A DNA stretch of 15,934 bases from a bacterium (GCA_029210545.1 JARGFV010000056.1:1-15934); one strand, 5' to 3'; shown: positions 282-13,097, counted from the first letter of the stretch. The notes: generated by a model from the sequence alone, not told the origin. Translations and numbers: made by a program.

Positions 282-295
282 GATTCCAGATTCCA
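282..295. repeat. Heptad repeat, GATTCCA x2
   Basis: Two exact tandem copies of GATTCCA lie directly after the terminator. This is the shortest of the 7-base-period arrays in the spacers. A related array (AATTCCA/GATTCCA) lies at 1154-1174, at the other end of the next gene. Confidence 0.6.
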
Positions 296-297
296 GA

Positions 298-321
298 GAG
301 GGGCGCCTGCGGGCGCCCCTC
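298..321. terminator. Second GC-rich hairpin, possible terminator
   Basis: A perfect 10-bp stem GAGGGGCGCC/GGCGCCCCTC (298-307 with 312-321) has a 4-base loop, followed by only a short CTTTA. The T-run is weak, so terminator activity is less certain than for the hairpin at 254-280. It may act as a backup, or as a barrier between the converging transcripts. Confidence 0.45.
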
Positions 322-360
322 CTTTATGCAAATAGCCGTATTCGAGTAATCGCCTTAACT

Positions 361-388
361 GTTGACTGGGAACTGTAAACCGTTCACT
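361..388. repeat. Degenerate heptad array (GTTnACT type)
   Basis: Four consecutive 7-base units, the first GTTGACT and the last GTTCACT, share ACT or ACC at positions 5-7. The array lies immediately left of the inverted repeat at 391-423. Confidence 0.5.
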
Positions 389-390
389 GA

Positions 391-423
391 TGATCTGATG
401 ACAGGTAAGCTGTCATCAGATCA
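391..423. repeat. Perfect inverted repeat across the oxidoreductase stop codon
   Basis: Two 14-base arms (391-404 and 410-423), TGATCTGATGACAG and its exact complement, flank a 5-base loop. The right arm contains the last codons and TGA stop (416-418) of the oxidoreductase read on the minus strand; the left arm is non-coding. No T-run follows on either strand, so it is not a standard intrinsic terminator, although an RNA hairpin at the 3' end is certain to be possible. Confidence 0.8.
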
Positions 424-1126
424 TCCCTTCGTACCCCTTCAGCTCCTCCGTCACGACCCTTTCCTTCCTGATCCCCAGCTCCTCCAGGGCGCCGGTGACC
501 GCCCGGACCATGGGAGGGGGGCCGGACACGTAGAAGGTCTGGCCCGGGATGTCCGGGACCGACTCCCGGATGACGCGGCTGTTGATGAACCCCGTAAAGC
601 CCGTCCACCCCTCGGGCGGGTTCTGCAGGACGTGAACCACCGTAAGTCCAGGGTCCGCTTTTTCCCATTGCTCGATCTCCCCGGCAAAAGCGGTCTCTTC
701 GACGTCGAGGTTTCCGTAGAGCAGATATTTTTCCCCGGTGACGCCCTTGTCCACGGCATGTTTCAGGATGCTCCTGATGGGAGTGATTCCGATCCCCCCG
801 GCGATGAAGGTGGCCCTGTCGAGGCCGCCCTCGTAGATGAGGTTCCCCATGGGCCCCCTGAAAGTCACCTTGTCCCCGCGAGACAACTTGACGACAACCT
901 GACTGAAATCAGACTGGCTGATCCGCTTGGTGAACTCCAGGTATGGTTCCGTGGGTGAGGAGGAGAAGGAGAGGGTGCGGGAGATCCCTCCATCTTCCCC
1001 CTGGACGGTGAAGTAGCCCCACTGTCCAGGCTTGAAGGTGAAGCCTTCCGGTTTTTCCATGCGCAGTGTAGCCGCGGAAGGAGTGCGCCGGATAAGTTCC
1101 ATGACCTTTACAGAATGCTCGCTCAT
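416..1126 (-). CDS. FAD/NAD(P)-binding oxidoreductase (ferredoxin-NADP reductase-like)
   Basis: Predicted soluble flavoprotein of 236 residues that moves electrons between NAD(P)H and an unknown partner. The N-terminal half is an FAD-binding barrel with RTLSFSS at about residues 50-56, matching the RxxS flavin motif. The C-terminal half is the nucleotide-binding domain, with GGIGITP at 110-116 and SGPPPM at 201-206, as in the PF00970/PF00175 families. There is no cysteine cluster, so no built-in 2Fe-2S domain; the electron acceptor must be separate. The start at 1126 is chosen because GAGGTGAA lies a few bases upstream; an in-frame start at 1168 would add 14 unlikely residues. It stands alone on its strand, with repeats on both sides. 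The fold is confident, the substrate unknown. Confidence 0.85.
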   Translation of the reverse strand: MSEHSVKVMELIRRTPSAATLRMEKPEGFTFKPGQWGYFTVQGEDGGISRTLSFSSSPTEPYLEFTKRISQSDFSQVVVKLSRGDKVTFRGPMGNLIYEGGLDRATFIAGGIGITPIRSILKHAVDKGVTGEKYLLYGNLDVEETAFAGEIEQWEKADPGLTVVHVLQNPPEGWTGFTGFINSRVIRESVPDIPGQTFYVSGPPPMVRAVTGALEELGIRKERVVTEELKGYEGMI

Positions 1127-1153
1127 AGGGTTCACCTCGCCTTTCGGGAATGC

Positions 1154-1174
1154 AATTCCAGATTCCAAATTCCA
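1154..1174. repeat. Heptad array (NATTCCA x3)
   Basis: Three tandem 7-base units, AATTCCA, GATTCCA and AATTCCA, lie just upstream of the oxidoreductase gene. The word matches the two units at 282-295, so the same heptad occurs on both sides of this gene. Confidence 0.65.
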
Positions 1175-1200
1175 TAATGTACCATGTAGCGGGTGCTAAT

Positions 1201-1326
1201 ATCCTGGATTCCCGCTTCCGCGGGAATGACGATTGAAAATTCCTCCTTCAATTTCGTCATTCCGGGCGAAGACCAGGAATCCATTCCTCCGCCTGTCCTG
1301 AGCAAGCGAAGTGCGTCGAAGGGCGC
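1201..1326. repeat. Dispersed palindromic repeats in the spacer
   Basis: The spacer between znuB and the oxidoreductase holds three repeat-like blocks and no gene. First is a hairpin ATTCCCGC-TTCC-GCGGGAAT at 1208-1227. Second is GTCATTCCGGGCGAAG followed by CAGGAATCCA at about 1256-1283, which pairs loosely with the first block. Third is a CCTGTCCTGAGC...TCGAAGGGCGC element at 1292-1326. Related copies of the second and third occur at 7667-7711 and 7416-7441. They look like dispersed extragenic palindromes. Confidence 0.65.
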
Positions 1327-1337
1327 GTACTCGCGTG

Positions 1338-2144
1338 TCAATGGCTATTAAAAAATTTTGCTCCCATCCATGCCGCGATAAACAGGACCGTTTCCACCAA
1401 GACGATGCTTCCCGAGGCGGGCAGGTCCAGGTAATAGCTTGCCACCAGCCCGGCGGCGACCGAAGCCATGCCGGCAGCACACGAGAGGAAGATGGCGGCC
1501 CGGAAATTGGGGGCGAGCTGCAGGGCGGTCGCGGCCGGGATGACGATGAGGGCCGCGACCAGCAGCAGGCCGACCACCTTCATGGCCAGGACCACGGTGA
1601 CGGCCGACAGCACCGCCACGAGCAGGTCCAGCCTGGCCACCGGGATGCCCGAACTCTTCGCCAACTCGTTGTCGAAGGTGATGGAGACCAGATCGTTGTA
1701 GTTAAGGGCCACCGTGACGATGACCACTCCAGCCAGGATCACCGAGGAGAAGACCTCGCCGGTACTGATGGCGAGGATGTTCCCGAAGAGGTAGGAGAAC
1801 AGCTCAACGCTGAACCGGCCGGATGCGCTGGCGATAACCACCCCGAGGGCGAAACCCACGGAAGAGACGATGCCGATGGCGGTGTCCCCGTGCAGGCCCA
1901 TCGTTTCTCTCAGCTTCAGGAGGAGGCCGGAGGCCAGGACCGCCACGACGAGGGCTGTCCAGATGGGAGAGATGCCGAGGAGAAGGCCTAGCGCCACTCC
2001 TCCGAAGGTGACGTGGGCAAGGCCGTGCCCCAGCATGGCCTCCCGCCGCAGGACCAGGAAGACCCCGAGAACGCTGCACGCCAGGGCGATGAGAAGCCCG
2101 GCGGCAAAGGCTCGTTGCATGAATGCGAATTGGAAAATTTCCAT
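1338..2144 (-). CDS. znuB: Zinc/manganese ABC transporter permease, ZnuB-like
   Basis: Membrane permease of a metal importer, 268 residues, the usual length for the ABC-3 family (PF00950; ZnuB/TroC/MntB). It is almost wholly hydrophobic, with about eight membrane segments. The N-terminal stretch FLVLRREAMLGHGLAHVTFGGVAL contains the family's conserved loop, in which RREAM is followed by GHGLAH. The C-terminal half carries the typical VVGLLLVAALIVIPAATA segment. It is third in the import set and begins 98 bases after the ATPase gene ends. The start codon at 2144 lies in a small palindrome (TGGAAA-A-TTTCCA, 2131-2143) and has no clear ribosome-binding site. The neighbouring binding protein has three histidine ligands, so zinc is the likelier metal. 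Confidence 0.9.
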   Translation of the reverse strand: MEIFQFAFMQRAFAAGLLIALACSVLGVFLVLRREAMLGHGLAHVTFGGVALGLLLGISPIWTALVVAVLASGLLLKLRETMGLHGDTAIGIVSSVGFALGVVIASASGRFSVELFSYLFGNILAISTGEVFSSVILAGVVIVTVALNYNDLVSITFDNELAKSSGIPVARLDLLVAVLSAVTVVLAMKVVGLLLVAALIVIPAATALQLAPNFRAAIFLSCAAGMASVAAGLVASYYLDLPASGSIVLVETVLFIAAWMGAKFFNSH

Positions 2145-2148
2145 TAGT

Positions 2149-2236
2149 TCTGGAATAGTGAAGGATGAAGGATGAATATTGCAGAGGCAGAGCCTGTGCC
2201 TTTCTTCCTCCTCCCTCCTTCCTCATTCCTCCTTCT
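2149..2236. repeat. Two heptad arrays in the znuC-znuB spacer
   Basis: The 98-base spacer holds two 7-base-period arrays. The first, 2149-2183, includes GGATGAA twice in tandem, with looser units such as TAGTGAA before it. The second, 2202-2236, has five pyrimidine-only or nearly pyrimidine units, such as TCCTTCC and TCATTCC. On the transcribed minus strand the second becomes a purine-rich GGA tract. No coding potential or clear promoter is seen. Confidence 0.55.
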
Positions 2237-2242
2237 GGTTTA

Positions 2243-2998
2243 TCAATGCCTGTGGCAGATCAGGTGGCTTTCCGGGCCGAAGAGCGTGATCGCCTGCTCG
2301 GATTCGCAGAAATCGTCGTGGCTTCCGTGAAAGATCAGCTTCTGGTTCAGGCACGCGACCTTGTTGACGTGCTTGGTGACCACCCCGATGTCGTGGGTCA
2401 CCAGGACCATGGTGACCCCCTTTTCCCTGTTCACCCGTTCGAGCATGTCGTAAAACCGTTTCTGGGTCGCGCCGTCCACACCGGTGGTCGGTTCGTCCAG
2501 GACCAGGACCTCCGGTTGGGTGACCAGGGCACGTGCGATGAACACCCGCTGCTGCTGCCCTCCCGAAAGAGCCCAGACCCGCCGGTTCTTGTACTGCCGC
2601 ATCTCCATGAGATCCAGGGCCTTGTCGATGACGCCCCCGTCTCCCTTTGAAAGGAACCTGGGCCACCTCTTGTGGGGAAGCAGGCCCATGGCCACCACCT
2701 CCCTCACCGAGGCGGGGAAGAAGGGATCAAGGTCGGTGGCCTTCTGGGGGACATAGCCGATGCGGTCCCAGGCGGTGAACTCGTTGAGGTCCCTCCCCAT
2801 GATCCGGATCGACCCGGAATCGGGTCTGGCCAGCCCCAGCATGATCCTGATGAGAGTGGATTTACCCGATCCGTTGGGGCCGAGGAGCGCCAGGAAATCC
2901 CCCCGGTGGACCTCAAGGGTCACCGAGTCGAGGATCTGCTCGCTGCCGTGCCGGAAACTGATCTTGTCCAGGTCGAACAGGACATCCGGATCATTCAC
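2243..2998 (-). CDS. znuC: Zinc/manganese ABC transporter ATPase, ZnuC-like
   Basis: Cytoplasmic ATPase of the metal importer, 251 residues, full length. Walker A GPNGSGKST is at 40-48, the Q-loop in YVPQ at 82-85, the signature LSGGQ at 144-148, Walker B VLVLDEP at 164-170 and the switch histidine H202 in VTHD. The C-terminus ends ESHLICHRH; His-rich tails are common in this subfamily and may touch metal. The start is GTG at 2998, with GGGAGGGG about 8 bases upstream inside znuA. The first 8 bases overlap the end of znuA, implying translational coupling. Only a metal-importer assignment fits the neighbours. Confidence 0.92.
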   Translation of the reverse strand: MNDPDVLFDLDKISFRHGSEQILDSVTLEVHRGDFLALLGPNGSGKSTLIRIMLGLARPDSGSIRIMGRDLNEFTAWDRIGYVPQKATDLDPFFPASVREVVAMGLLPHKRWPRFLSKGDGGVIDKALDLMEMRQYKNRRVWALSGGQQQRVFIARALVTQPEVLVLDEPTTGVDGATQKRFYDMLERVNREKGVTMVLVTHDIGVVTKHVNKVACLNQKLIFHGSHDDFCESEQAITLFGPESHLICHRH

Positions 2999-3920
2999 AG
3001 GATAACCCCTCCCGCAGGCTTTTCAGGTTCTGCTCCATGAGATCGGTTAAAGCCGTGCCGCTTTGCCACTGGGCAGAGGTGAGGTTCGAAACGGGATTAA
3101 GGGAAAGCATCCCGGCTCCGGTCTCCCGGGAAAGGACCCTGGCAAGCTCCGGGTTCACCGTCTCCTCGAAAAAAACGGTGTTCACGTTGAGTTCCCTGAC
3201 CTGTTTTATCACAGCGGCCATGTGCCTGGCACTGGGTTCGGTGTCCGGGCTGAGCCCGTAGATGGACACCTGGGTCAACCCGTAACGTTTAGCAAGGTGA
3301 CCGAAGGCGGCATGTCCGCCGGTGACCAGGGTTGTGCTGGAGCAGCGCGAAAGGCCCAGCTCGAAGGCCATATCCAGTTCCTCGAGCCGACGGGCGTACT
3401 GTGCGGCACGCGAAGTGTAGATTTCCCCGTTGCCCGGGTCTTTTGCCGAAAGGATCTTCCCCGTTATCCGGACTGCCCGCGCAGCCTGTGCAAGGTCCAG
3501 CCAGAAATGGGGATCACTCCCCTGATCATGCCCACCATTAACGATACTCTTCGAACTGTCCGGTCCGTCGTCCCCGGCAAAGCCGGAGCTGTCCATGATC
3601 TCAACACTCTCAAGCCCTTTCCCCTTCACCGCGCCGACAAGATCGTGAGCCCATGGCTCCATGGATTCACCGACGTAAAGAAAGATGTCGGCCCTGGAGA
3701 GAAAAACGATGTCCGACGGTTTCGGCTCCCAGGAGTGGGGCTCTACACCGGCAGGGAGCAGGATGCGCACGTCCGCAAATGGTCCCGCCACCTCCCGGGC
3801 AAATTCGTAGAGGGGGAAAACGGAGGCGACCACTGTCAACCGATTGGACTGGGCCTTTGCCGGGAATATTGCCAGGGTGAGCGACAGGATGAATATGCAA
3901 GTTGCGAACGATTTTTTCAA
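2991..3920 (-). CDS. znuA: Zinc ABC transporter substrate-binding protein, ZnuA-like
   Basis: Periplasmic metal-binding protein, 309 residues, cluster A-I type (PF01297). A signal peptide covers residues 1-23, with a KK n-region, a hydrophobic core and AKA cleavage site. Likely zinc ligands are H62 in EPHSWEP, H138 in DPHFWLD and H203 in GGHAAFGH, with an acidic residue in FFEETVN (252-253) as a possible fourth. Three histidines favour zinc over manganese. The loop before H138 (NGGHDQGSDPH) is a short form of the His-rich loop. The start at 3920 is TTG, chosen because it gives the complete signal peptide; no ribosome-binding site is visible. Codons 25-33 form one arm of a 25-bp inverted repeat whose other arm lies just upstream of the start. 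No Zur-type operator is obvious. Confidence 0.9.
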   Translation of the reverse strand: MKKSFATCIFILSLTLAIFPAKAQSNRLTVVASVFPLYEFAREVAGPFADVRILLPAGVEPHSWEPKPSDIVFLSRADIFLYVGESMEPWAHDLVGAVKGKGLESVEIMDSSGFAGDDGPDSSKSIVNGGHDQGSDPHFWLDLAQAARAVRITGKILSAKDPGNGEIYTSRAAQYARRLEELDMAFELGLSRCSSTTLVTGGHAAFGHLAKRYGLTQVSIYGLSPDTEPSARHMAAVIKQVRELNVNTVFFEETVNPELARVLSRETGAGMLSLNPVSNLTSAQWQSGTALTDLMEQNLKSLREGLSCE

Positions 3921-3950
3921 TTATAAGTCCAATCGGTTGACAGTGGTCGC
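3826..3950. repeat. 25-bp perfect inverted repeat enclosing the znuA start
   Basis: The arms are 3826-3850 and 3926-3950, exact reverse complements over 25 bases, separated by 75 bases. The first arm encodes the N-terminus of mature ZnuA (SNRLTVVA); the second is in the spacer 5 bases upstream of the TTG start. In the znuA mRNA the whole signal-peptide coding region and the start codon would sit in the hairpin loop. Confidence 0.92.
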
Positions 3951-3957
3951 AGTGCCA

Positions 3958-4068
3958 AGAGATAAGAGATAGGTGATTAGGAAAATCAGTTCCAGGAGAT
4001 AAGTGAATACCTGGACTTAAGGTACAGCCTGTAGAATTTCCTTATCTCGTATCCCTTATCCCCTATCT
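3958..4068. repeat. Heptad arrays in the znuA/GTPase spacer
   Basis: Two 7-base-period arrays flank the middle of the spacer. The array at 3958-3985 has AGAGATA twice in tandem followed by looser units. The array at 4041-4068 has CTTATCT, CGTATCC, and then CTTATCC and CCTATCT. The words are approximately complementary, so the two arrays can pair imperfectly with each other. A small CCAGG...CCTGG hairpin lies between them (about 3991-4014). Confidence 0.6.
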
Positions 4069-4070
4069 CT

Positions 4071-4141
4071 CGAACTTAATGATGGCGATATGGCATGGTT
4101 CTTAATCGTTTAACTCTACTATATCGCCATCATTAAGTTCG
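4071..4141. repeat. 21-bp perfect inverted repeat spanning the GTPase stop codon
   Basis: The arms are 4071-4091 and 4121-4141, exact reverse complements over 21 bases, with a 29-base spacer. The right arm encodes ELNDGDI near the C-terminus of the GTPase; the left arm is non-coding and lies 2 bases from a heptad array. The TAA stop (4102-4104) is in the loop. No T-run follows, so it is not a typical terminator. Confidence 0.92.
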
Positions 4142-5097
4142 TAGTCCATCGCCACCCTCTGCCCGTCGTAGACCTGCTCACCCCAGACCCTGCCGAACTT
4201 CATCCTCTGGGCCAGCTCCTTGTGGACCAGGGTAGCCAGTTCCGAAACGGTGGCGCCCTTTGTGACCACGAAAGGCTGGGTGAGGTCAGGCTCCTTGCCG
4301 GGCGGCTTGGAAAAGACCCTGATGAGGCGAAGGGAGCTATGTACCAGGTCCTTGAACCTCTCAAGCCCGGTGCCGGTTCTGGCCGACACGGGGTGGATCT
4401 CCGGCAGGTCGTCGAAAAGCTCCCTCAGGATGGCCAGCCTTTCGTCGGCTTCGCCCATGGCGCACTTGTTGCCCAGGTAGATGGCCGGGACGAGGACCCA
4501 CCCGTCCTCCTGGTATGTTTTTTCCCCGCCCGGTTCGATGAGGCGGATCTTCAGGTCGTTCAGGACGGCGTGGGCGGCCTCCCACTGCTCGATGAGATCT
4601 TCCCGGGCAAGATCAAGGACGACGACGGCGATATCCGCGTTCCGGATGAGGCCGGAGATCCAGCGTTCCGTGACGCTGGGGTCCAGGGCCGGGGTGTCGA
4701 TGAGCTGGATGGGGATGCCGTGGTGGAACATCATGCCGGGCTGGGGCATGCGGGTGGTGAACGGGTAATCGGCGATGGCGGGTTCCAGGTTGGTCAGGAT
4801 CGAGATGAGGGAGGATTTTCCCGTGTTCACGGGACCGATGACCGCCGCCTGGGCTGCCCCTTCCCTGGGAACGTGGGACAGGTCGACCCTCTTGCTGCCT
4901 TTTTTCTTCGCCTGCTCCGACAGGTTCTTCCACTTGGCGATACGCTTTTTTATGTCCGACTGCATCTTCTCGGTCCCCTTGTGCTTGGGGATGAGACGAA
5001 GCATCTTGTCGAGGGCTTCGAGTTTCGCGTCAGGGGTGGTGGCCGAGCGGAACTGTTCTTCGGCTTCCAGGTACATCGGGGAGAGGTTAGCGCTCAT
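4102..5097 (-). CDS. TGS-domain GTPase (Obg/DRG-like)
   Basis: Cytoplasmic P-loop GTPase of 331 residues, related to the Obg-HflX/DRG superfamily, which generally acts on ribosomes or RNA. Residues 1-70 are a charged helical N-terminus. G1 is GPVNTGKSS at 88-96, a switch region PFTTRMPQPGM follows at 112-122, G3 is DTPAL at 134-138 and G5 is SARTG at 238-242. A C-terminal TGS domain covers about 270-331, ending DGDIVELND. Two motifs deviate: G3 reads DTPA rather than DxxG, and the expected NKxD reads NKCA at 210-213. The ATG at 5097 has no clear ribosome-binding site; ATG at residue 8 is an alternative. It is separated from znuA by a repeat-filled spacer and is probably its own unit. Confidence 0.85.
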   Translation of the reverse strand: MSANLSPMYLEAEEQFRSATTPDAKLEALDKMLRLIPKHKGTEKMQSDIKKRIAKWKNLSEQAKKKGSKRVDLSHVPREGAAQAAVIGPVNTGKSSLISILTNLEPAIADYPFTTRMPQPGMMFHHGIPIQLIDTPALDPSVTERWISGLIRNADIAVVVLDLAREDLIEQWEAAHAVLNDLKIRLIEPGGEKTYQEDGWVLVPAIYLGNKCAMGEADERLAILRELFDDLPEIHPVSARTGTGLERFKDLVHSSLRLIRVFSKPPGKEPDLTQPFVVTKGATVSELATLVHKELAQRMKFGRVWGEQVYDGQRVAMDYELNDGDIVELND

Positions 5098-5184
5098 AAG
5101 GACTATGCGGTTTCCAATAAGGGTTCATCTGCTGCGTTATCGCCCCTCGGGAATCCTCGATATCTGCATTCAAAGTGTCGCACT

Positions 5185-5316
5185 TCACCACAGATCAATA
5201 TCCCCGGTCGACCTGGCAACTCCATGGAAAACCATGGCGTGAGCACCAACGACGAGGTATTTAACTTCCCAGCCGTCGAAAGCGGACAATATGTTTTTGT
5301 AATCGCTGCTGATCAA
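5185..5316 (-). pseudogene. Truncated minimal nucleotidyltransferase, N-terminal 43 codons
   Basis: A TTG start at 5316, with GGGGGA about 6 bases upstream, opens a frame overlapping the end of the 66-codon gene in the +1 phase. It includes VKYLVVGAHAMVFHGV followed by ARSTGDIDLW, the G(G/A)xAxxxHG and RxTxDID(L/I)W signature of small nucleotidyltransferase-fold proteins, which hold the catalytic Asp pair DxD. A TGA at 5185-5187 stops it just after that motif; family members usually run about 100 residues further. No continuation in the other frames is seen up to the GTPase gene. The remaining 5101-5184 looks like unrelated spacer, perhaps a dispersed element that cut the gene. The small partner gene is intact, so the pair is probably a decayed toxin-antitoxin-like or MNT-type module. 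Confidence 0.65.
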
Positions 5317-5461
5317 TGTCGATCCCCCGGAAGGCCCATGCGTTCCTGGTCATGACATGCACCATCGCGACCCTCTCGGCCGGAGTAGTTCTGTCCAGGT
5401 CCGTCTCCTTTCCCTGGTCCTCGAGGCGGACCTTCCCGATTTTTATCACCTTGTTTTTCAT
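5261..5461 (-). CDS. Small protein paired with the nucleotidyltransferase remnant
   Basis: A 66-residue basic, soluble protein with TTPAERVAMVHVMTRNAWAF and QKHIVRFRRLGS. The pattern 'PAER...M...T..AWAF' and a C-terminal basic RxxR tail recalls short unnamed proteins found directly before small nucleotidyltransferase genes; I do not know an established function. Its stop overlaps the start of the truncated nucleotidyltransferase by 56 bases, a coupling typical of such pairs. The start is placed at ATG 5461; a TTG at 5479 would add six residues. It directly follows the 35-codon fragment on the same strand. Confidence 0.6.
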   Translation of the reverse strand: MKNKVIKIGKVRLEDQGKETDLDRTTPAERVAMVHVMTRNAWAFRGIDIDQQRLQKHIVRFRRLGS

Positions 5462-5468
5462 AAAGTTA

Positions 5469-5576
5469 TCATAGCACAACCTCGGAGCAGGAAAGGTAGT
5501 ACCTGGCCATGGCCGCCTCGAGCTGGCGCAGGATCCCGAAGATTTTGAGGACGCGATCTTTGGTTTCAGTCACCAT
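5469..5576 (-). CDS. 35-codon ORF, possible ferritin-like gene fragment
   Basis: ATG at 5576 to TGA at 5469. The peptide is one amphipathic helix, with KIFGILRQLEAAMARYYLSC as its core, then SEVVL and the stop. The 'LR.LE.AMA..Y..C.E' spacing resembles the first helix of small ferritin-like or rubrerythrin-like proteins, so it may be the 5' remnant of such a gene; that is a weak resemblance. The next gene begins 7 bases after the stop. A TATAAT box lies 10 bases upstream of the ATG on the minus strand (5587-5592), which would give a nearly leaderless transcript. Confidence 0.35.
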   Translation of the reverse strand: MVTETKDRVLKIFGILRQLEAAMARYYLSCSEVVL

Positions 5577-5586
5577 TACAGGATGA

Positions 5587-5592
5587 ATTATA
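5587..5592 (-). promoter_or_regulatory. Possible -10 box for the minus-strand debris genes
   Basis: A perfect TATAAT on the minus strand, 10 bases before the ATG at 5576. No convincing TTGACA-type -35 element is found at 16-18 bases. It lies in the 91-base divergent spacer shared with polX. Confidence 0.3.
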
Positions 5593-5655
5593 CAACATGG
5601 ACGGTATAAATCTAAGAAGAAGCTGGTTCCCGGAAACCTCATCCGTGAAATATGT

Positions 5656-5661
5656 TATATT
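5656..5661 (+). promoter_or_regulatory. Possible -10 box for polX
   Basis: TATATT ends 6 bases before the polX ATG (5668). Transcription would begin at or next to the start codon, giving a leaderless mRNA; consistent with this, there is no ribosome-binding site upstream of the ATG. The -35 region is not convincing. Confidence 0.3.
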
Positions 5662-5667
5662 TCGCAG

Positions 5668-7389
5668 ATGGACAAAAAAGCCATATCCAACGCCCTGGAA
5701 GAGGCGGCCGTCCTCATGGAGCTTGCCGGGGACAACCCCTTCCGCATCAGGGCCTACCACAACGCGTCGCGCATCGTCCGCGCTTTCGCCGGGGACCTGG
5801 CCGAGGCCGTGACCGACGGCTCCATCCGCTCCGTCAAGGGGATCGGGACCAATATCGCCGCCCACATCGCAGAACTTCTCGGGTCGGACGACCCGCCCTT
5901 CCTGCTTGAGCTGCGCTCCCGCTTCCCGGAAGGGGTCCTGGAGCTTCTGCGCATCCCCGGCCTCGGCCCGAAAAAGATCAGGGTACTCATGGATGAGCTC
6001 GATGTCACCTCGGTGGGAGAGCTGGAGTACGCCTGCGGGGAGAACCGCCTCCTGACCCTGCCCGGCTTCGGAGCGAAGACCCAGGAAAACATCCTCAAGG
6101 GGATCGCCGGCCTCATCGCCTACGCCGGCCGCTACCTGGCCGATACGGTCCAGCCCCAGGCTGATGCCATCGTCGAAGCCCTGAGGAAGGTCAAGGGAAC
6201 CAGACAGGTGGAGGTGGCCGGCTCCCTTCGCCGCCGCAAGGAGATCGTCAAGGACATCGACCTGGTGGCCTCGGGAAAGAGCGAGCCTCTCATGGATGCG
6301 GTGGCCGCGCACGAGCTGGCGGGAGAGGTCACCGCCCGCGGCGACACCAGGCTGACGGCTCGCCTCAGGTCGGGGGTCAACCTGGACCTGAGAGTGGTTC
6401 CGCCGGAGTCGTTTCCCTACGCCTGGCAGCACTTTACCGGGAGCAAGGAGCACAACATCGCCCTGCGCGAAAGGGCCAGGAAGATGGGTCTCAAGTCCAA
6501 CGAGTACGGCCTGTTCGACGGGGAAAAGAACGTGCCCTGCAGGGACGAGGCTGCCATCTACGAACGGCTGGGACTGGCCTTTATCCCCCCCGAGCTTCGC
6601 GAGGAGATGGGGGAGATCCCGGCGGCCGGGGCCGGCACCCTGCCGGTGCTCGTTGAACCGGGCGATATCCGGGGCGCTCTCCACATGCACACCGTGGCCA
6701 GCGACGGGACGGCCACCCTGGAGGAGATGGTCGCAGCGGCGAGGGACCTGGGCCTTTCGTACATCGGGGTGACGGAACACTCCCAGTCAGCAAGATACGC
6801 AAGAGGTCTTGAACCCGGGCGGGTAAAACAGGAATTTGCCGTGATCGACAAGATAAACGACAAAAACGAAGGTTTTGTCGTTTATAAAGGCATTGAATCA
6901 GACATCCTTCCAGACGGCTCCCTGGACTACCCGGAGGAGATCCTTGCCTCCTTCGATTTTGTCATCGGCTCGGTCCATTCCAGCTTCACCATGAAGGAAG
7001 AGCAGATGACCGACCGCATCTGCCGGGCCCTGGAGAACCCCTGGCTGGACATCCTTGGGCACCCCACGGGGCGGCTGCTGCTGGCCCGTGAGCCCTACGC
7101 CGTGGACATGGACCGGGTTCTCGAGTGCGCGGCCAAAAACGGCAAGTCCATCGAGCTCAACGCTCACCCCTACCGCCTGGACATCGACTGGCGGCTCCTT
7201 CCCAGGGCGAAGGAACTGGGGATGAGGATCGCCATCTGCCCGGACGCCCACAGCACCGCAGAGTTGGCTTACACCTTTTACGGCCTGGGCGCGGCGAGGA
7301 AGGGGTGGCTGGAGAAGGGGGACGTGCTGAACTGCCTGTCAGCTGAAGAGCTGAAGGCGTATTTCCTGCAAAAGCGGCAAAAGCATTAA
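5668..7389 (+). CDS. polX: DNA polymerase/3'-5' exonuclease PolX
   Basis: Bacterial family-X DNA polymerase, 573 residues, the normal length, acting in gap-filling base excision repair. Order of parts: helix-hairpin-helix segments at about 53-65 (VKGIGTNIA), 94-104 ([11 protein letters not shown]) and 128-140 ([10 protein letters not shown]). The polymerase core has GSLRRRKE at 185-192, the catalytic pair D196/D198 in KDIDLV and a third Asp at D240 in NLDLRVV. A C-terminal PHP phosphoesterase domain follows, with HMH at 339-341, D346, H371, E410, H437, H465, and D526/H528 in PDAHS; the metal-ligand set looks complete, so the nuclease should be active. The C-terminus is followed by spacer repeats, with nth next on the same strand 370 bases downstream; both belong to the same repair pathway. 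Confidence 0.95.
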
Positions 7390-7759
7390 CACAGAGAAAA
7401 TCGAAGGGCGCTATGCTTGTCCTGAGCTTGTCGAAGGGCGCTTTGCGCCAGGGTTCAGGGGAAGGCGCGGTTCGTGTAAGAGCAGCAAAGGCGGCCTCAC
7501 GCAGAGACTCGGAGACGCCCAGAGAACCAGGAAAAAGTCATGTTGTCATCGCGAACCATTAACCACGTGAAGCGATCCCGGGATTGCTTCGGCACGCCAT
7601 CCGTCTTCGTCACGCAAAAGGCGTGACTACGCCGCGACAAGTCGGCGTGACCCGCAATGACAGACAATGCTGGATTCCGGGTCTTCGTTTTACTTCGCCC
7701 GGAATGACTTGATGGTTTACTCGGCTACTCTACCGGTAAAATCCAGAAAGTAAGGTCAT
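7390..7759. repeat. Spacer of dispersed extragenic repeats between polX and nth
   Basis: No gene is seen. The blocks in order are: two TCGAAGGGCGCT copies at 7401 and 7431 flanking CTTGTCCTGAGCTTG; a hairpin GGCGC-TTT-GCGCC at 7437-7449, the only terminator candidate after polX; a block of TTGTCATCGCGAAC and GCGATCCCGGGATTGCTTCGG followed by CGCAATGACAG at about 7553-7665, a palindromic type widely dispersed in bacterial genomes; an inner hairpin GTCACGC/GCGTGAC at 7609-7627; and ATTCCGGG...CCCGGAAT at about 7673-7707. The second and last blocks are related to those at 1256-1326. Confidence 0.7.
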
Positions 7760-8404
7760 ATGGCTGAAAGCATGAAAAAGAGATCCGAGCGAGCAGTGGC
7801 CATCGACGCTATCCTCGCCGGACTCTACCCCAACGACACGGCTCTCAAATTTCATAACACCCTCCAGCTTCTGGTCGCTACCATCCTTTCCGCCCAGTGC
7901 ACCGACGGTCAGGTGAACATGGTGACCCCGGCTCTCTTCGAGAAATACCCGGACGCGAAGGCGTTCGCCGGCGCCGACCTCCGGGAACTGGAGCAGATGA
8001 TCTTCTCAACCGGCTTCTACCGGCAGAAGGCAAAGTCGATCCAGGGGTGCTGCAAGGCTATCGTTGAAAAGTTCGGGGGAGAGGTGCCCAGTACGCTGGA
8101 GGAGATGGTCACCCTGCCCGGGGTGGGGCGCAAGACGGGCAACCTGGTCCTGGGCATCGCCGAAGGGATCCCGGGTGTGGTGGTGGACACCCACGTCAAG
8201 CGGTTATCGAACCGAATGGGGCTTACGGAAAACAAGGACCCGGAGAAGATCGAAAAGGATATCAACGCCCTTTTGCCGCCCGGGCGCTGGATGCCCTTTT
8301 CCAGTGAACTGATCTTTCTGGGAAGAGACAAGTGCTCAGCGCGAAGGGCGAAGTGCGAAGAGTGCCCGGTCAGTGTTCTATGCCCGAAGGTGGGAGTGGT
8401 TTGA
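7760..8404 (+). CDS. nth: Endonuclease III (DNA glycosylase/AP lyase)
   Basis: Removes oxidised pyrimidines from DNA and cuts the abasic site. The length, 214 residues, is typical. The helix-hairpin-helix is LPGVGRKTGN at 119-128 with catalytic Lys125, and the catalytic Asp143 is in VVDTHVKR. The four cysteines of the 4Fe-4S cluster are C192, C199, C202 and C208, spaced 6-2-5 as in the family. All four and both catalytic residues are offset by exactly five from E. coli Nth, so the enzyme should be intact. LSAQCTD at 44-50 corresponds to the usual LSAQATD. The start at 7760 has TAAGGT about 6 bases upstream; Met5 is an alternative. It converges on the beta-helix gene. Confidence 0.95.
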   Translation: MAESMKKRSERAVAIDAILAGLYPNDTALKFHNTLQLLVATILSAQCTDGQVNMVTPALFEKYPDAKAFAGADLRELEQMIFSTGFYRQKAKSIQGCCKAIVEKFGGEVPSTLEEMVTLPGVGRKTGNLVLGIAEGIPGVVVDTHVKRLSNRMGLTENKDPEKIEKDINALLPPGRWMPFSSELIFLGRDKCSARRAKCEECPVSVLCPKVGVV

Positions 8405-8405
8405 A

Positions 8406-8440
8406 CGTGTGTGCGTGAAGCGTGGAGCGTGTATGCGATA
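8406..8440. repeat. Heptad array between nth and the beta-helix gene
   Basis: Five 7-base units begin 2 bases after the nth stop codon, including GCGTGAA, GCGTGGA and GCGTGTA. The following 30 bases to the beta-helix stop contain similar words on the opposite strand (ACGCAC), so the convergent spacer can fold imperfectly. No T-run terminator is visible. Confidence 0.6.
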
Positions 8441-8470
8441 TGATTGTCACTCACGTACGCACAAACGCAC

Positions 8471-10948
8471 TCACGGGACAATGACCACACGTCCCAAATC
8501 CCCGTCATCCTCCTTGTCGAAGATGACATCTCCCAGAACCTTCCCCTTGGGCAGGTCGAAAGCTCCGCCCTCGACCTCCACGTCCTCCGTAACGTGGATC
8601 CCCAGCTTGACGTGGTAGTCGCGGCTTTCCGAGAAGGTGTTGTTTTTCAAGGCCACGTTCTCCGGGTTGTCCGTGACGAAGATCGCGGTGTTGTTCCCTT
8701 GGAATGTGTTCCCCTCAACGGTGCCCCCGAACTCGTGGAACCTCAGACCGGCGTCGTTGTAGCGGAAGGCGTTGTCCCTGACCGACATGTTCGTGCTGGA
8801 AAAGCGAAGCCCCACGTTGTTCCTCTCGAAGGCGCAGTCCCGGACAACCACGTCCCCCGCCTCCCTGGCGTGTATGCCGGTCGAGGCGTTCGTGAACACG
8901 CAGTTTTCGAACCGGCCTCCCTTTCCGTTGAGCAGGTTGACGCTTCCCCACTTGACGCCTTCGACGGATGCCGGCCCTGCCTGGGAGAAGTGGATCGGTT
9001 CGTTGGCGGTCCCGACAGCATCGATCCTGCCGCTCACGATGAGCTCCGAGGAGGGGAAGCCGGGATGGTCGGAGCACAGGTCGAAGAGGGAGTCGGCCTC
9101 GACGGGGGAGAACCATATCCTGGCCCCATGCCTGAGGGACACGGGCTTGTCTGTTGGTGTGGGGACGTCCCCTGCGATGAGAAGTCTCCCCGCATAAGGA
9201 CCCGTGGGCACCCCGGTGCCGGGAAAGGCCAGGGAGAATGTCAGTGGTTCATCGGTGATGACAGACCCGATCCCCTCCTCGTCCTGACCGTCGTAGATCC
9301 TGGCCGGGTCGGGAGGGCCGCCGACCCCCCAATCGCATCCACTGGCGTCGATACCGGTTGATCCGTTGTTGTCCACGTCGAACCGGCCGTTGCCGGCAAG
9401 CCGGCTCATTTCGACTCGCACCGGGGCGTCGGTGACGGATAGACCCGTAAAGCCGTTTTGGGAAAGGTCACTGTAGATGACCCGGCCATCGACGCTGTTG
9501 AAGGACAGCCCTTCCGTCAGGTTGCCCCGCACCATGGACTCGCGGATGGTGACCTTCTCCCCGGCTCCCTTGAAACGCGGGCCCCTCACGTTGCCGCTGA
9601 TGACAGCCCTGGTGAGGGTCGTCTCCGATTCCCTGGACACGAAACTCTCGGCGAAACTGCCGGTGACCACGAGATCTGATACCGCCACCTTCGACCGGAG
9701 GAAATTGATCCCGGCCACGTTGTCCTCGGCGACGATGTTCGTGAGGGTGACCTCGCTGTCCCGGAACCGGGCCCCGCTCTGGTTGCGGCGGAAAAAAGCC
9801 CGGTCGATGACGGTCCCGGCCGACTCCTGGAACTGGACCCCGCGAAGGTTGTCCTCGAAAATGACGTTGGAAAAGCGCGCCTTTGAAAAATGGCTGTGGA
9901 ACGCCTTGACCCCGTGACGGAAGATCGCATTGTTCACCACGTTGTCAGGCGAGTCGGAGGCGATGACGCTCAGGCTGTCCCAAACCCCCGGCGAGGCTCC
10001 AGGCTCTTCGGAGTCGAATAGAACCCAGGCGTCCTCCTCGCCGAGAACCTTCACCGTCCCCTGGACGACGATCCAGCTTTCTCCAAGGCCGTCACCGTTG
10101 GTGTCCCTGAAGGTGAAGAGCACGTGGGTGCCGGGTCCGATCTCGAGGGTGACTTCCGGAGGAACGGCCACCTGGCCGTCGATGATCACGGTCCCGGACC
10201 AGGTGGTGTCCTCCGTGAGGGCCACTTCCCCCATGTACTGCCTGGTGACAGGAGGGCGGTCAGGGGTGACGGGCAAGGTCTCCCTGTAATGGACATCAAC
10301 CGGCTGAGCCGTCAGGGAAAGGGCGCCGTCGCCGTTGCCCTCGAAAGTGTCTGATGGGCTTTTCAGGGGGTTGAGCGTGTGCCAGGCGGCGGTGGCTATC
10401 CCGTTGTCCCGGTAGGTGTTGCCCGACTGGATGACCCACGCTCCCAGGGCCGCGGCCATGCCCACTTCGTTGCCGGTAAAGGTGCACCCCGTTACCCGGG
10501 CGGTGCCGCCGAGCATCATGAGCCCGTACTGGGCTCCGGCAACAGTGGAACGTTCCAGTGTCACGGCGGCACCGGGGGTTGCCGCGACGATCCCGCCCCA
10601 CGAGCCCCTGGTGCCCGTTTCCGTTCGGATGACGGTGTCTTCGAGGACGAGAACCCCCCGGACGACGATCTCGGTCCCCGTGGTCACGAACTGGGAGTCG
10701 GTGCGGGTCCCCTCGCTGGCAAGGACCGTGACCCTCGTGCCCGGCTGAAAAGCCAGGGTGATCCCCTCCGGGACGAGGAGGTCCTCGGAGAGGGTGACCA
10801 TCCCCGACAGGGTCGTGTCGGCGGTGACGGCGCCGGCCAGCACCACGGGCTGGTCGACAGTTCCCCGCAGGATTGCGCTGCGGGGGCCGGCGCAGGAAAA
10901 TACAGCCAGAGTGAGGAGGCTAAGAAGGATGGCAGGTCTTATTCTCAT
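8471..10948 (-). CDS. Large parallel beta-helix repeat lipoprotein
   Basis: 825-residue predicted lipoprotein: a signal peptide with lipobox VFSC and Cys19, with Ala at +2, favouring the outer membrane. The rest is PbH1-type repeats (PF13229-like) with spaced motifs such as GCTFTGNEVG, NVIFEDNLRGVQF and NTFQGNNTAIF, predicting right-handed beta-helices. Three successive modules can be drawn, at about 41-230, 243-550 and 586-825. Each opens with a strand-rich segment of the type 'G.V...D..V..G..L.I.PG' (for example PEVTLEIGPGTHVLF). Module two ends with GVGGPPDPARIYDGQDEEG, a short version of the Trp/Gly capping motif known from such helices. DTNGDGLGE at 282-290 could bind calcium. The role is unknown; polysaccharide binding or cleavage and adhesion are options. 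Confidence 0.85.
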   Translation of the reverse strand: MRIRPAILLSLLTLAVFSCAGPRSAILRGTVDQPVVLAGAVTADTTLSGMVTLSEDLLVPEGITLAFQPGTRVTVLASEGTRTDSQFVTTGTEIVVRGVLVLEDTVIRTETGTRGSWGGIVAATPGAAVTLERSTVAGAQYGLMMLGGTARVTGCTFTGNEVGMAAALGAWVIQSGNTYRDNGIATAAWHTLNPLKSPSDTFEGNGDGALSLTAQPVDVHYRETLPVTPDRPPVTRQYMGEVALTEDTTWSGTVIIDGQVAVPPEVTLEIGPGTHVLFTFRDTNGDGLGESWIVVQGTVKVLGEEDAWVLFDSEEPGASPGVWDSLSVIASDSPDNVVNNAIFRHGVKAFHSHFSKARFSNVIFEDNLRGVQFQESAGTVIDRAFFRRNQSGARFRDSEVTLTNIVAEDNVAGINFLRSKVAVSDLVVTGSFAESFVSRESETTLTRAVISGNVRGPRFKGAGEKVTIRESMVRGNLTEGLSFNSVDGRVIYSDLSQNGFTGLSVTDAPVRVEMSRLAGNGRFDVDNNGSTGIDASGCDWGVGGPPDPARIYDGQDEEGIGSVITDEPLTFSLAFPGTGVPTGPYAGRLLIAGDVPTPTDKPVSLRHGARIWFSPVEADSLFDLCSDHPGFPSSELIVSGRIDAVGTANEPIHFSQAGPASVEGVKWGSVNLLNGKGGRFENCVFTNASTGIHAREAGDVVVRDCAFERNNVGLRFSSTNMSVRDNAFRYNDAGLRFHEFGGTVEGNTFQGNNTAIFVTDNPENVALKNNTFSESRDYHVKLGIHVTEDVEVEGGAFDLPKGKVLGDVIFDKEDDGDLGRVVIVP

Positions 10949-10968
10949 ATCTCAGATCCCAAATTTCC
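10941..10968. repeat. Heptad array at the start of the beta-helix gene
   Basis: Four 7-base units, including ATTCTCA, TATCTCA and GATCCCA, overlap the first codons of the beta-helix gene (its ATG is 10946-10948). The ribosome-binding region of that gene therefore lies in repeat sequence and is weak. Confidence 0.45.
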
Positions 10969-10997
10969 AGGTTTACAATCTCTTGCCGGTACGAAGC

Positions 10998-11077
10998 GCG
11001 ATGATCGAGGTGCAGGGCGATGATCGAGGTGCGAAGTGAGGATTTTCTTCGTTCTTCGCTCTTTGTGCTTCGCGCCA
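10998..11077. repeat. 16-bp direct repeat and heptad array in the spacer
   Basis: GCGATGATCGAGGTGC occurs twice exactly, at 10998-11013 and 11017-11032, 19 bases apart. The words GATGATC and GAGGTGC within it are themselves 7 bases long. From 11043 to 11077 a second array follows with units such as CGTTCTT and CGCTCTT, each ending in CTT. No gene is seen in the 137-base spacer. Confidence 0.75.
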
Positions 11078-11085
11078 GGTGTTTC

Positions 11086-12057
11086 TCAAAACAGATAATG
11101 ATATCCGTACGCCATGGTGATTGTCCCGACGAGGCAGATCCCGAGGTACAGGAAGAACACCCTGCGGGCAAAGAAAGTCAGGAAGATCCCCATGACGGGA
11201 ATGGCGGTCACCGGTCCTCCCACGAGGAAGGCCAGCCCGGGGCCCTTGGCGAGGGGCAGGTCCACGTAACCATAGAGGATGGCCGAGGCCATGATCTGGT
11301 TGATGTGCAGGGGGACCACTGCCACCGTGATGAGGGGGATACTGAGGGGGAACGTGTTGGTGAGCAGGGGGGCGACCCACTCGGAAGGAATGTACCGGGC
11401 GGCCACCACCTCGATGAATACCCCGAGGAGAACGAACTTCCCGATCTTCAGGGTCCCGTCCACGAACTTTCCGAAAAAAACAGCGGCCTTGTTGCTCGTG
11501 CGCGATTCGATGTACTTTTTGCTGAACTGGTTCCTGCAATCGCACTGAAGGTCTTCGCAGGGATAGTCGGGGTCGTGGAAATCACCCCTGGGGATCCCAC
11601 GGGTGAAAAGCCTGTCCATCTCGAACCAGCCCCGCCGCTGGAAATAGAGGGTCGTATAGCCGGCGAACAGACCCATGATAGCGGCGCTCGCCAGCTTGAC
11701 CACTGCCCACTGCTGCCCGAGTTCCCAGGCGGTCAGGGTATACCCCGCGGGGCTCATGAGGGGGCTCGTTACCAGCAGGGTCATGGCCGGGGCGAAAGGA
11801 ACCCCCGCCAGGATCATGGAGATGGTCAGGGGCAGGATGCCGCAGGCACACAGGGGGCTGAACAGGCCGATACCCACGGCCAGCCAGATGGCTCCTCCGC
11901 CCAGTCTTTCAAGGGTCCTGCGCAGCTTGATGTGCCACCCGTAGGTGCGAACGAGGGCCTCCAGGGCCACTCCTGCCGCGAAATACCAGAAGATGTACCT
12001 GAACTCGGCGATAAAATCGGAACCCAGTCCCAGAACCTCGTTGAAAAATGTTTCCAA
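11086..12057 (-). CDS. PF03773-type permease, putative metal or metalloid exporter
   Basis: Polytopic membrane protein, 323 residues, of the permease family that includes ArsP and SO_0444-type transporters (formerly DUF318). Membrane segments cluster at about 20-140 and 205-323, separated by a polar cytoplasmic-type loop at 141-200. The hallmark SPLCACG is at 67-73, and a second conserved patch, VVPLHINQIMASAI, at 247-260. The loop has an extra cysteine cluster, PCEDLQCDC (166-174), that could bind a soft metal. The TTG start at 12057 is chosen because AAGGAG lies 6 bases upstream; an earlier TTG at 12102 lacks a binding site. It lies downstream of TauE/SafE in the same direction. Substrate unknown; metal or arsenical efflux is suggested by family only. 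Confidence 0.8.
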   Translation of the reverse strand: METFFNEVLGLGSDFIAEFRYIFWYFAAGVALEALVRTYGWHIKLRRTLERLGGGAIWLAVGIGLFSPLCACGILPLTISMILAGVPFAPAMTLLVTSPLMSPAGYTLTAWELGQQWAVVKLASAAIMGLFAGYTTLYFQRRGWFEMDRLFTRGIPRGDFHDPDYPCEDLQCDCRNQFSKKYIESRTSNKAAVFFGKFVDGTLKIGKFVLLGVFIEVVAARYIPSEWVAPLLTNTFPLSIPLITVAVVPLHINQIMASAILYGYVDLPLAKGPGLAFLVGGPVTAIPVMGIFLTFFARRVFFLYLGICLVGTITMAYGYHYLF

Positions 12058-12178
12058 AAACGGCTCCTTAGACAGATATCTGCCAGCCAACGGGGCCCAC
12101 AAGCTGATTAATGGTCAAAAAAATGCCCTTTTTGCATTCAAACCAATAATTATTGCCATAGTTATGCCAAGAAGGGCA

Positions 12179-12248
12179 GTATCCAGTATCCAATAGCCAG
12201 ACCCCAGAGTCTGCGGTTCTGGAGTCCGGACACCAGGCACTGGATTTT
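12179..12248. repeat. Ten-unit heptad array
   Basis: A 70-base run divides into ten 7-base units. It begins with GTATCCA twice, and later units include GACCCCA and GGAGTCC; most end in CC, CA or CT. It runs into the hairpin at the TauE/SafE stop codon. The remaining spacer to the permease start, 12058-12178, is AT-rich and shows no gene; it probably holds the permease promoter, but no clear boxes are seen. Confidence 0.65.
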
Positions 12249-12277
12249 TTTGCTCATTTCATGAGAGAGAAAAATCC
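12242..12277. repeat. Imperfect inverted repeat across the TauE/SafE stop codon
   Basis: GGATTTTTTTGCTCAT (12242-12257) is matched by an imperfect complement at 12261-12277, with a 3-base loop. The inner 5 bp and outer 8 bp pair exactly. The right arm encodes FFSLM at the C-terminus of the TauE/SafE protein; the stop codon (12254-12256) is in the left arm. The U-rich side is 5' on the transcript, so it is not an intrinsic terminator. Confidence 0.6.
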
Positions 12278-13012
12278 ATCCCACCCCATTTTCAGCGAAA
12301 TAACCAGGATGATGGCTCCCACGATGATCCTCAGGGTCCTGGGACGAGCGTAGTGCGTGACCCAGAGTCCCCCCAGCCTGGAACCTGTCAGGGCGGCCGC
12401 GGCAAGGAGGAGAGCGGTCGGAATGGGGAAGTCGGCGTGGGGCAGATGGGACAGGAAGGCCGCTGTCGCGGAGACCACCACCACGAGGGATGACGTGGCC
12501 ACTGCCTGCCTGGTCGGGAACCCGGTGGCCAGGAGGAACGAAACGAGGAGGAACCCGCCGCCGATCCCCAGCAGTCCGCTGAAAAATCCCACGAAAAATC
12601 CGATGGTCAGGATGACCCATGCTCGATAGACCGTCAGGGGGGCCGATCTGTCCACCGGGTCGCGGGTCGAAAAGATGCTATAGACGACATAGCCCGCCGC
12701 CGCCGAGAACAGGACCTTTACAACTCCGGTTGGAATGACCGTCATGGCCCAGGCTCCCGCCGGGGCCCCGAGAAGGACGGTGGACGCGGCCGTAAGGCTG
12801 GTTTTCGTCTGAACCAGCCCGTTCCGGTAGTATGTATAGGCTGCGCTGGAACTGGTCGCGATCCCGAGGAAAAGGCTCAGGGGGATGGCGCCTGTAGCGA
12901 AGTCAAGGCCCCACCAGGAAAGCAGGGGAACGTAAACGATCCCGCCGCCGAGACCCATCATGCCCAGGAGACCGGAGCCGAAGATGACCGCGATGAGTAA
13001 AATGGCCAGCAT
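12254..13012 (-). CDS. TauE/SafE-family membrane permease
   Basis: Membrane protein of 252 residues, the usual length of the TauE/SafE family (PF01925), whose characterised members export sulfite, sulfoacetate or related anions. It has about eight membrane segments in two homologous halves, each beginning with the family motif: GLLGMMGLGGGIVYVPLL at 14-31 and GLLGIGGGFLLVSFLL at 146-161. SRLGG at 211-215 closes the family pattern. The ATG at 13012 has no good ribosome-binding site. It heads a minus-strand group with the PF03773 permease and the beta-helix gene, and is divergent from the PKD operon. Substrate cannot be inferred from sequence. Confidence 0.88.
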   Translation of the reverse strand: MLAILLIAVIFGSGLLGMMGLGGGIVYVPLLSWWGLDFATGAIPLSLFLGIATSSSAAYTYYRNGLVQTKTSLTAASTVLLGAPAGAWAMTVIPTGVVKVLFSAAAGYVVYSIFSTRDPVDRSAPLTVYRAWVILTIGFFVGFFSGLLGIGGGFLLVSFLLATGFPTRQAVATSSLVVVVSATAAFLSHLPHADFPIPTALLLAAAALTGSRLGGLWVTHYARPRTLRIIVGAIILVISLKMGWDGFFSLMK

Positions 13013-13027
13013 GGGGGTTACAGTAAA

Positions 13028-13097
13028 GGGGAAAGTGGAAAGTGGAAAGTGGAAAGTGGAAAGGAAACAATGAGGAGGGAGAAGGGTTGAGGATTGC
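13028..13097. repeat. Heptad array, GTGGAAA x4 and decayed units
   Basis: One GGGGAAA unit and four exact GTGGAAA units (13035-13062), the cleanest heptad array in the window, lie 15 bases upstream of the TauE/SafE start. Looser purine-rich units continue to about 13097. On the other strand the unit reads TTTCCAC. Confidence 0.85.

Follow-up and report, generated by a model that had tools for sequence, protein, structure and literature searches.

Why should the spacers of a short bacterial locus divide again and again into consecutive 7-base units, when the word that is repeated changes from one spacer to the next? The locus lies in a stretch of 15,934 nucleotides (hereafter the window; GCA_029210545.1, JARGFV010000056.1), and its preliminary description listed such arrays in at least 11 places, each with its own word, and held that a 7-base mechanism that copies local sequence, or a shared spacing constraint, would be new. 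The periodicity itself cannot be counted as new, as an excess of intergenic heptamers is known across prokaryotes (PMC6344855, PMC4692102) and was noted, without explanation, in the SPADE survey (PMC6344855). What the arrays are, how they behave among relatives, and which process might generate them, are considered here in turn.

A period of seven in spacer DNA

All five exact tandem arrays of the preliminary description lie where it placed them. Its wider count stood in part: an automatic scan of the window spacers returned ten period-7 segments (starting at 282, 1155, 2159, 2204, 3957, 4043, 8413, 11045, 12177, and 13025), compared with none in each of 100 dinucleotide-preserving shuffles and zero to one at other lags, while the arrays proposed at 361 and 10941 were too degenerate for the threshold. 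The same signal runs through the sampled part of the genome that carries the window, that of an uncultured bacterium (G000), of which we read 1.18 Mb of 2.72 Mb in 241 contigs, calling genes with a home-made hexamer model; this and the other assemblies are metagenome-assembled genomes (MAGs). Autocorrelation with shuffled controls gave a lag-7 match fraction of 0.298 in 167 kb of spacers, against 0.253 after shuffling (z ~54), with further peaks at 14, 21, and 28, whereas the fraction in 991 kb of coding DNA was 0.250 against 0.263, with nothing beyond the codon pattern. The sharp peak expected in spacers alone is therefore present, and neither an absence of lag-7 excess nor an equal excess in coding DNA, the two outcomes that would have spoken against it, was observed; restriction of the period-7 excess to spacers, relative to shuffles and to coding DNA, is also what characterizes heptamer repeats. 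The sample contains 347 period-7 segments spread over 245 spacers, and about 20 segments at each of periods 3-6 and 10-13. Period 8 forms a secondary excess (148 segments) with words of its own, such as ACACGGAG.

That many words share one period, as first proposed, is evident from 67 canonical words among 135 TRF arrays and 102 distinct words among 214 spacers, a diversity unlike the one word per genome of the cyanobacterial, Xanthomonas, or Beggiatoaceae type. The claim that each array has its own word fared less well: letter-shuffled words gave 190 distinct forms among the same spacers, words recur over loci, and adjoining arrays prove to be reverse-complement pairs. Plain slippage, in which a 7-bp step is favored by the footprint of the polymerase and any hairpins are incidental, would yield a lag-7 excess in spacers only, and the literature already contains the footprint idea along with the heptamer excess (PMC4692102, with reference to a 2007 simple-repeat survey). 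Under plain slippage, neither the pairing of arrays as reverse complements nor an AG/CT polarity common to unrelated words and phyla would be expected, and given the structure set out below we consider this explanation improbable.

Heptad-armed hairpins and their polarity

The arrays represent arms of small intergenic inverted repeats, or what is left of such arms; these repeats form a large class united by architecture and not by sequence. Most arrays are not independent words but arms on either side of a loop: of 65 pairs of adjoining arrays within one spacer, 28 have words that are reverse complements of each other, a relation found in 12% of random pairs, and their direct similarity is at the random level. 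The G000 sample contains 84 heptad-armed inverted repeats, or 65 under a stricter rule. In these, the unit is 7 bp long, occasionally 8 or 9, and is repeated about three to six times; a non-repetitive loop follows, mostly of 5-130 nt, and then the reverse-complement word. Every unit of the 5' arm carries one [C/A][A/G]G step, and in the heptad profile [C/A] [A/G] G precedes four variable bases, which agree between units and between arms at about 0.7 identity. Loops of elements that share a word look unrelated when read from the listing, without alignment. In the window, the arrays at 2163 and 2202 belong to one hairpin, as do those at 3958 and 4041, the halves of 8406-8475, and the halves of 12177-12245 (Table 1); the hairpins at 8405-8475 and 12177-12245 were read from the sequence and are not detector output. 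Both the hairpins and their polarity escaped the preliminary description, and the pure spacing constraint that it entertained leaves unexplained why one word is common to both arms.

Table 1. Period-7 arrays and hairpin arms in the window.
Positions	Strand	Feature	Basis
282..297	+	Single array GATTCCA, beside a terminator-like hairpin	Scan
1155..1174	+	Array ATTCCAG (gene strand: GGAATYT)	Scan
2152..2176	+	Left (5') hairpin arm, word GGATGAA, in the 98-bp znuC/znuB spacer	Scan and hairpin detection
2205..2229	+	Right (3') arm of the GGATGAA hairpin, TTCCTCCTCCCTCCTTCCTCATTCC	Scan and hairpin detection
3961..3987	+	Left arm, word AGAGATA, in the znuA/GTPase-gene spacer; array 3957-3977	Scan and hairpin detection
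4034..4060	+	Right arm of the AGAGATA hairpin; array 4043-4067	Scan and hairpin detection
8405..8437	+	Left arm, word GCGTGAA, in the convergent nth/beta-helix-gene spacer	Sequence reading, array scan, relatives
8449..8475	+	Right arm of the GCGTGAA hairpin; ends in the stop region of the beta-helix gene	Sequence reading, relatives
10990..11075	+	Degenerate hairpin: left GGTACGAAGCGCG, right array TTCTTCG (11045-11075)	Array scan; pairing from sequence reading only
12177..12208	+	Left arm, word CAGTATC	Scan
12217..12245	+	Right arm of the CAGTATC hairpin, TTCTGGAGTCCGGACACCAGGCACTGGAT	Sequence reading
13025..13063	+	Longest array, AAAGTGG, 5.6 copies, without inverted partner	Scan

When both arms are read 5' to 3' towards the loop, a strand rule appears, which was noticed in the G000 data and then tested. 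AG exceeds CT by 376:73 in the hairpins of this genome (54 vs 9 elements, p=6e-9), by 252:53 when each word is counted once (36 vs 7 elements), and by 106:15 in period-8 hairpins (19 vs 1 elements). An independent set of 29 hairpins, from relatives and from other phyla, gave 203:44 (24 vs 4 elements, p=2e-4), and the named distant phyla within this set were AG-polar by 8 vs 1 elements. The AG phase at arm ends is probably in part an artefact, as arm detection halts at conserved bases. The base preference held up under cross-validation; positional conservation, assessed in the same way, did not set AG apart from the alternative anchors, and we therefore claim no binding core for it. Primase start sites, at which CT in the template corresponds to AG in the primer, offer one idea for the origin of the polarity.

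Two further explanations of the arrays can be weighed against these features. A DNA-binding protein that contacts an AG core every 7 bp, while the remainder of the unit drifts, would accord with a strong base preference at the three adjacent positions of [C/A][A/G]G. Such a protein leaves the agreement of the variable bases between units and arms unexplained, period 8 occurs too, and AG does not clearly exceed other anchors in conservation, making this explanation decidedly improbable. Alternatively, the hairpins might be selected as RNA in operon spacers, serving transcript ends, processing, or stability, and in co-directional spacers they do start a median of 12 bp past the stop codon, with 26 bp left between their end and the following start. 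However, RNA-level selection is disfavored, and seems to us very improbable, because hairpin density in divergent spacers (1.32 per kb) is similar to that in co-directional (1.64) and convergent (1.59) spacers, and because the gene strand shows no preference for G.U; with 50 G.U vs 80 A.C, the G.U-tolerant pairing of the transcribed strand that marks an RNA structural element is not seen.

Layout and word among relatives

Period-7 arrays are present in all sampled family members. Outside the family they occur in G012, G027, and G029, with one in G020, while most other non-family genomes had none in the stretch sampled, some stretches being short or masked. Period-7 or period-8 arrays were also found in named genomes, comprising ANGP1 MAGs (L104, L105), Armatimonadota (L121, L132), Acidobacteriota (L101, L129), and WOR-3 (L171). 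On the question raised in the preliminary description, of whether the word or only the period is conserved in relatives, orthologous spacers indicate that period and layout are kept and the word is changed. All of these comparisons, including the closest, are between species. The gene order of the window is retained in G003 and G011, and in the convergent spacer between nth and the beta-helix gene the hairpin word is GCGTGAA in G000, AAAGGAGA in G003, and ACACGGAG in G011. The spacer between znuA and the GTPase gene carries hairpins of GAGATAA in G000, GTGTAAA in G011, and AGTTGNT in G005, and in G003 a CAGCACG array of nine copies.

The pace of this turnover can be gauged from G003 and G011, which are 83-95% identical in the coding stretches measured (91-95% at znu; 83-84% at polX and nth). 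Three of six spacers compared between them are almost unalignable, two align in part, and one is conserved, which indicates that turnover is fast and not uniform. In the conserved spacer, which precedes polX, the two genomes share the loop and differ in the arms; also before polX, a heptad array (GTTCTAC ATTCTAG GTTCTAC ATTCC) is stable between the two genomes, and the arrays are therefore not simply hypermutable. The spacers of this pair give the impression of block-wise replacement no less than of rewriting. A hairpin of the CGCAGAG family, with a period of ~9, has a conserved loop and differing arms in G003 (L275:1240-1500) and G011 (L276:244-514), with an additional piece containing GTCACGCCTCTGGCGTGACAGG within the arm in the latter. 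Further, at L282:2475-2511 in G011 the C-terminus of the beta-helix protein directly adjoins tauE, and the permease that lies between them in G000 and G003 is absent.

Possible copying or mobility, and known repeat families

Block-like replacement invites comparison with mobile elements. A REPIN- or MITE-like miniature element, with inverted arms and a variable loop, could be mobilized in trans, by a Y1 (RAYT) transposase or another, and diversify very fast. REPINs and REPs resemble the G000 hairpins in having two intergenic inverted arms around a poorly conserved spacer, in overall size, and in the variability of the loop (PMC3116915, PMC2817692), and the GT(A/G)G head at the 5' side of REPs (PMC2817692) recalls the AG polarity. 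The recurrence of heptad words between loci fits this explanation, as does the gap between znuC and znuB, which is only 5 bp in G004 and ~5 bp in G009 and G007 (tblastn coordinates) vs ~100-400 bp in others. In contrast to REPINs, the arms here are tandem heptads with the core [C/A][A/G]G, and the conserved REP word, the GT(A/G)G head, and near-identical copies are lacking; no word or loop is shared by all copies. The Y1/RAYT-type transposase gene of G000 (G000:C150:1802-2491; L241) is flanked by its own GTAACCCCGGTGTCAGAGC repeat family and not by heptads, and one RAYT gene of G001, with a partly masked flank, is not clearly heptad-flanked. Heptads are present without a Y1_Tnp match in G007, G010, and G011 (the latter two incomplete), and some Y1-rich genomes had no heptads in the short stretch sampled. 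RAYT/Y1 was accordingly rejected as the driver, as it is not beside heptads in G000 and is missing from some heptad-bearing relatives. A MITE would be expected in many copies with conserved terminal repeats and a target-site duplication; the hairpins showed no conserved ends, and in these between-species comparisons no closely related pair of sites, one filled and one cleanly empty, was found. Overall, a mobile element of this kind appears unlikely, if still a serious candidate.

As plain slippage gives the period and not the pairing or polarity, and a REPIN would here have neither a shared word nor a flanked RAYT, we rank first a process of copying at the DNA level, in which short slippage is combined with fold-back template switching anchored at AG/CT. 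We hold this tentatively, at somewhat less than an even chance; the local copying raised in the preliminary description is in this sense possible. Replication-associated copying would duplicate a short local word in steps of 7-8 nt, starting or pausing at AG/CT, and the word would then be copied into the opposite arm through fold-back (hairpin) template switching. The products may be tolerated by spacers and not by coding frames, and repeated rewriting or replacement would explain a layout that is kept among relatives while the word changes. Against copying we count the stable array in G003 and G011, the block-like replacement of spacers, the failure of AG to stand out in cross-validation, and the recurrence of words between loci, which suggests some dispersal. 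A more radical version, in which a dedicated activity started at AG/CT writes a word into both arms in fixed 7-nt (or 8-nt) steps, such that in many bacterial phyla an architecture is inherited without a sequence and rewritten in situ, is in our view rather unlikely.

Loss of mismatch repair was rejected as a cause, as G000 and most family members have MutS. Loss of the hairpin nuclease SbcCD was also considered: no SbcD above the family cut-off was found in any of the 12 family members, nor in the heptad-bearing outsiders G012 and G027; conversely, none of the genomes with SbcD above the cut-off (five relatives and nine named genomes) is heptad-bearing, all being heptad-poor. Most genomes without SbcD are heptad-poor too, and with small numbers and non-independent lineages the link is not significant, so that a tie between loss of SbcCD and tolerance of hairpins is suggestive only.

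Among known repeats, the heptamers of the SPADE and 2007 surveys come closest, being of period 7, intergenic, of many words, and of wide and patchy distribution (PMC6344855, PMC4692102; the 2007 survey as cited in the latter), whereas the G000 arrays are mostly short, degenerate, paired as reverse complements, AG-polar, and subject to rapid word turnover. The intergenic heptamer arrays of Xanthomonas (GGGAATC, with some inverted pairs) and Nostoc (GGGGA(T/C)T) rely on one G-rich word per genome, with G-quadruplexes proposed (PMC4692102), while G000 has at least 67-102 words, most of them not G-rich. Beggiatoaceae likewise have heptamers in spacers, but there as direct repeats only of the one word TAACTGA, mostly just upstream of start codons (PMC4679880). 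Thus the period-7 excess is known, and the many-word hairpin organization, the AG polarity, and the word turnover were not found described in the freely accessible literature searched; a search with sequence strings of the common heptad words returned no relevant paper. A heptamer excess that had gone unexplained (PMC6344855) becomes an object with parts, namely inverted-repeat arms with a fixed AG/CT polarity, and as its layout is kept without the word between close relatives, and is seen also in distant phyla, its birth, replacement, and genetic requirements become testable.

Repeats with conserved sequence coexist with the heptad hairpins. One is a conventional MITE-like family, unlike the hairpins: a palindrome of ~160 bp that is dispersed over G000 in at least 45 copies, 89-97% identical (for example G000:C19:13208-13374 and C14:31838-32006, with many more), and that occurs also in G003 (L205:1540-1697), G011, and G008. 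Within the window, positions 1201-1325 and 7540-7710 hold sequence-conserved dispersed repeats, GGATTCCCGC..GCGGGAATGACG and CTGGATTCCGGGTCTTCG..CGAAG..CCGGAATGAC, which match many places in G003 and G011.
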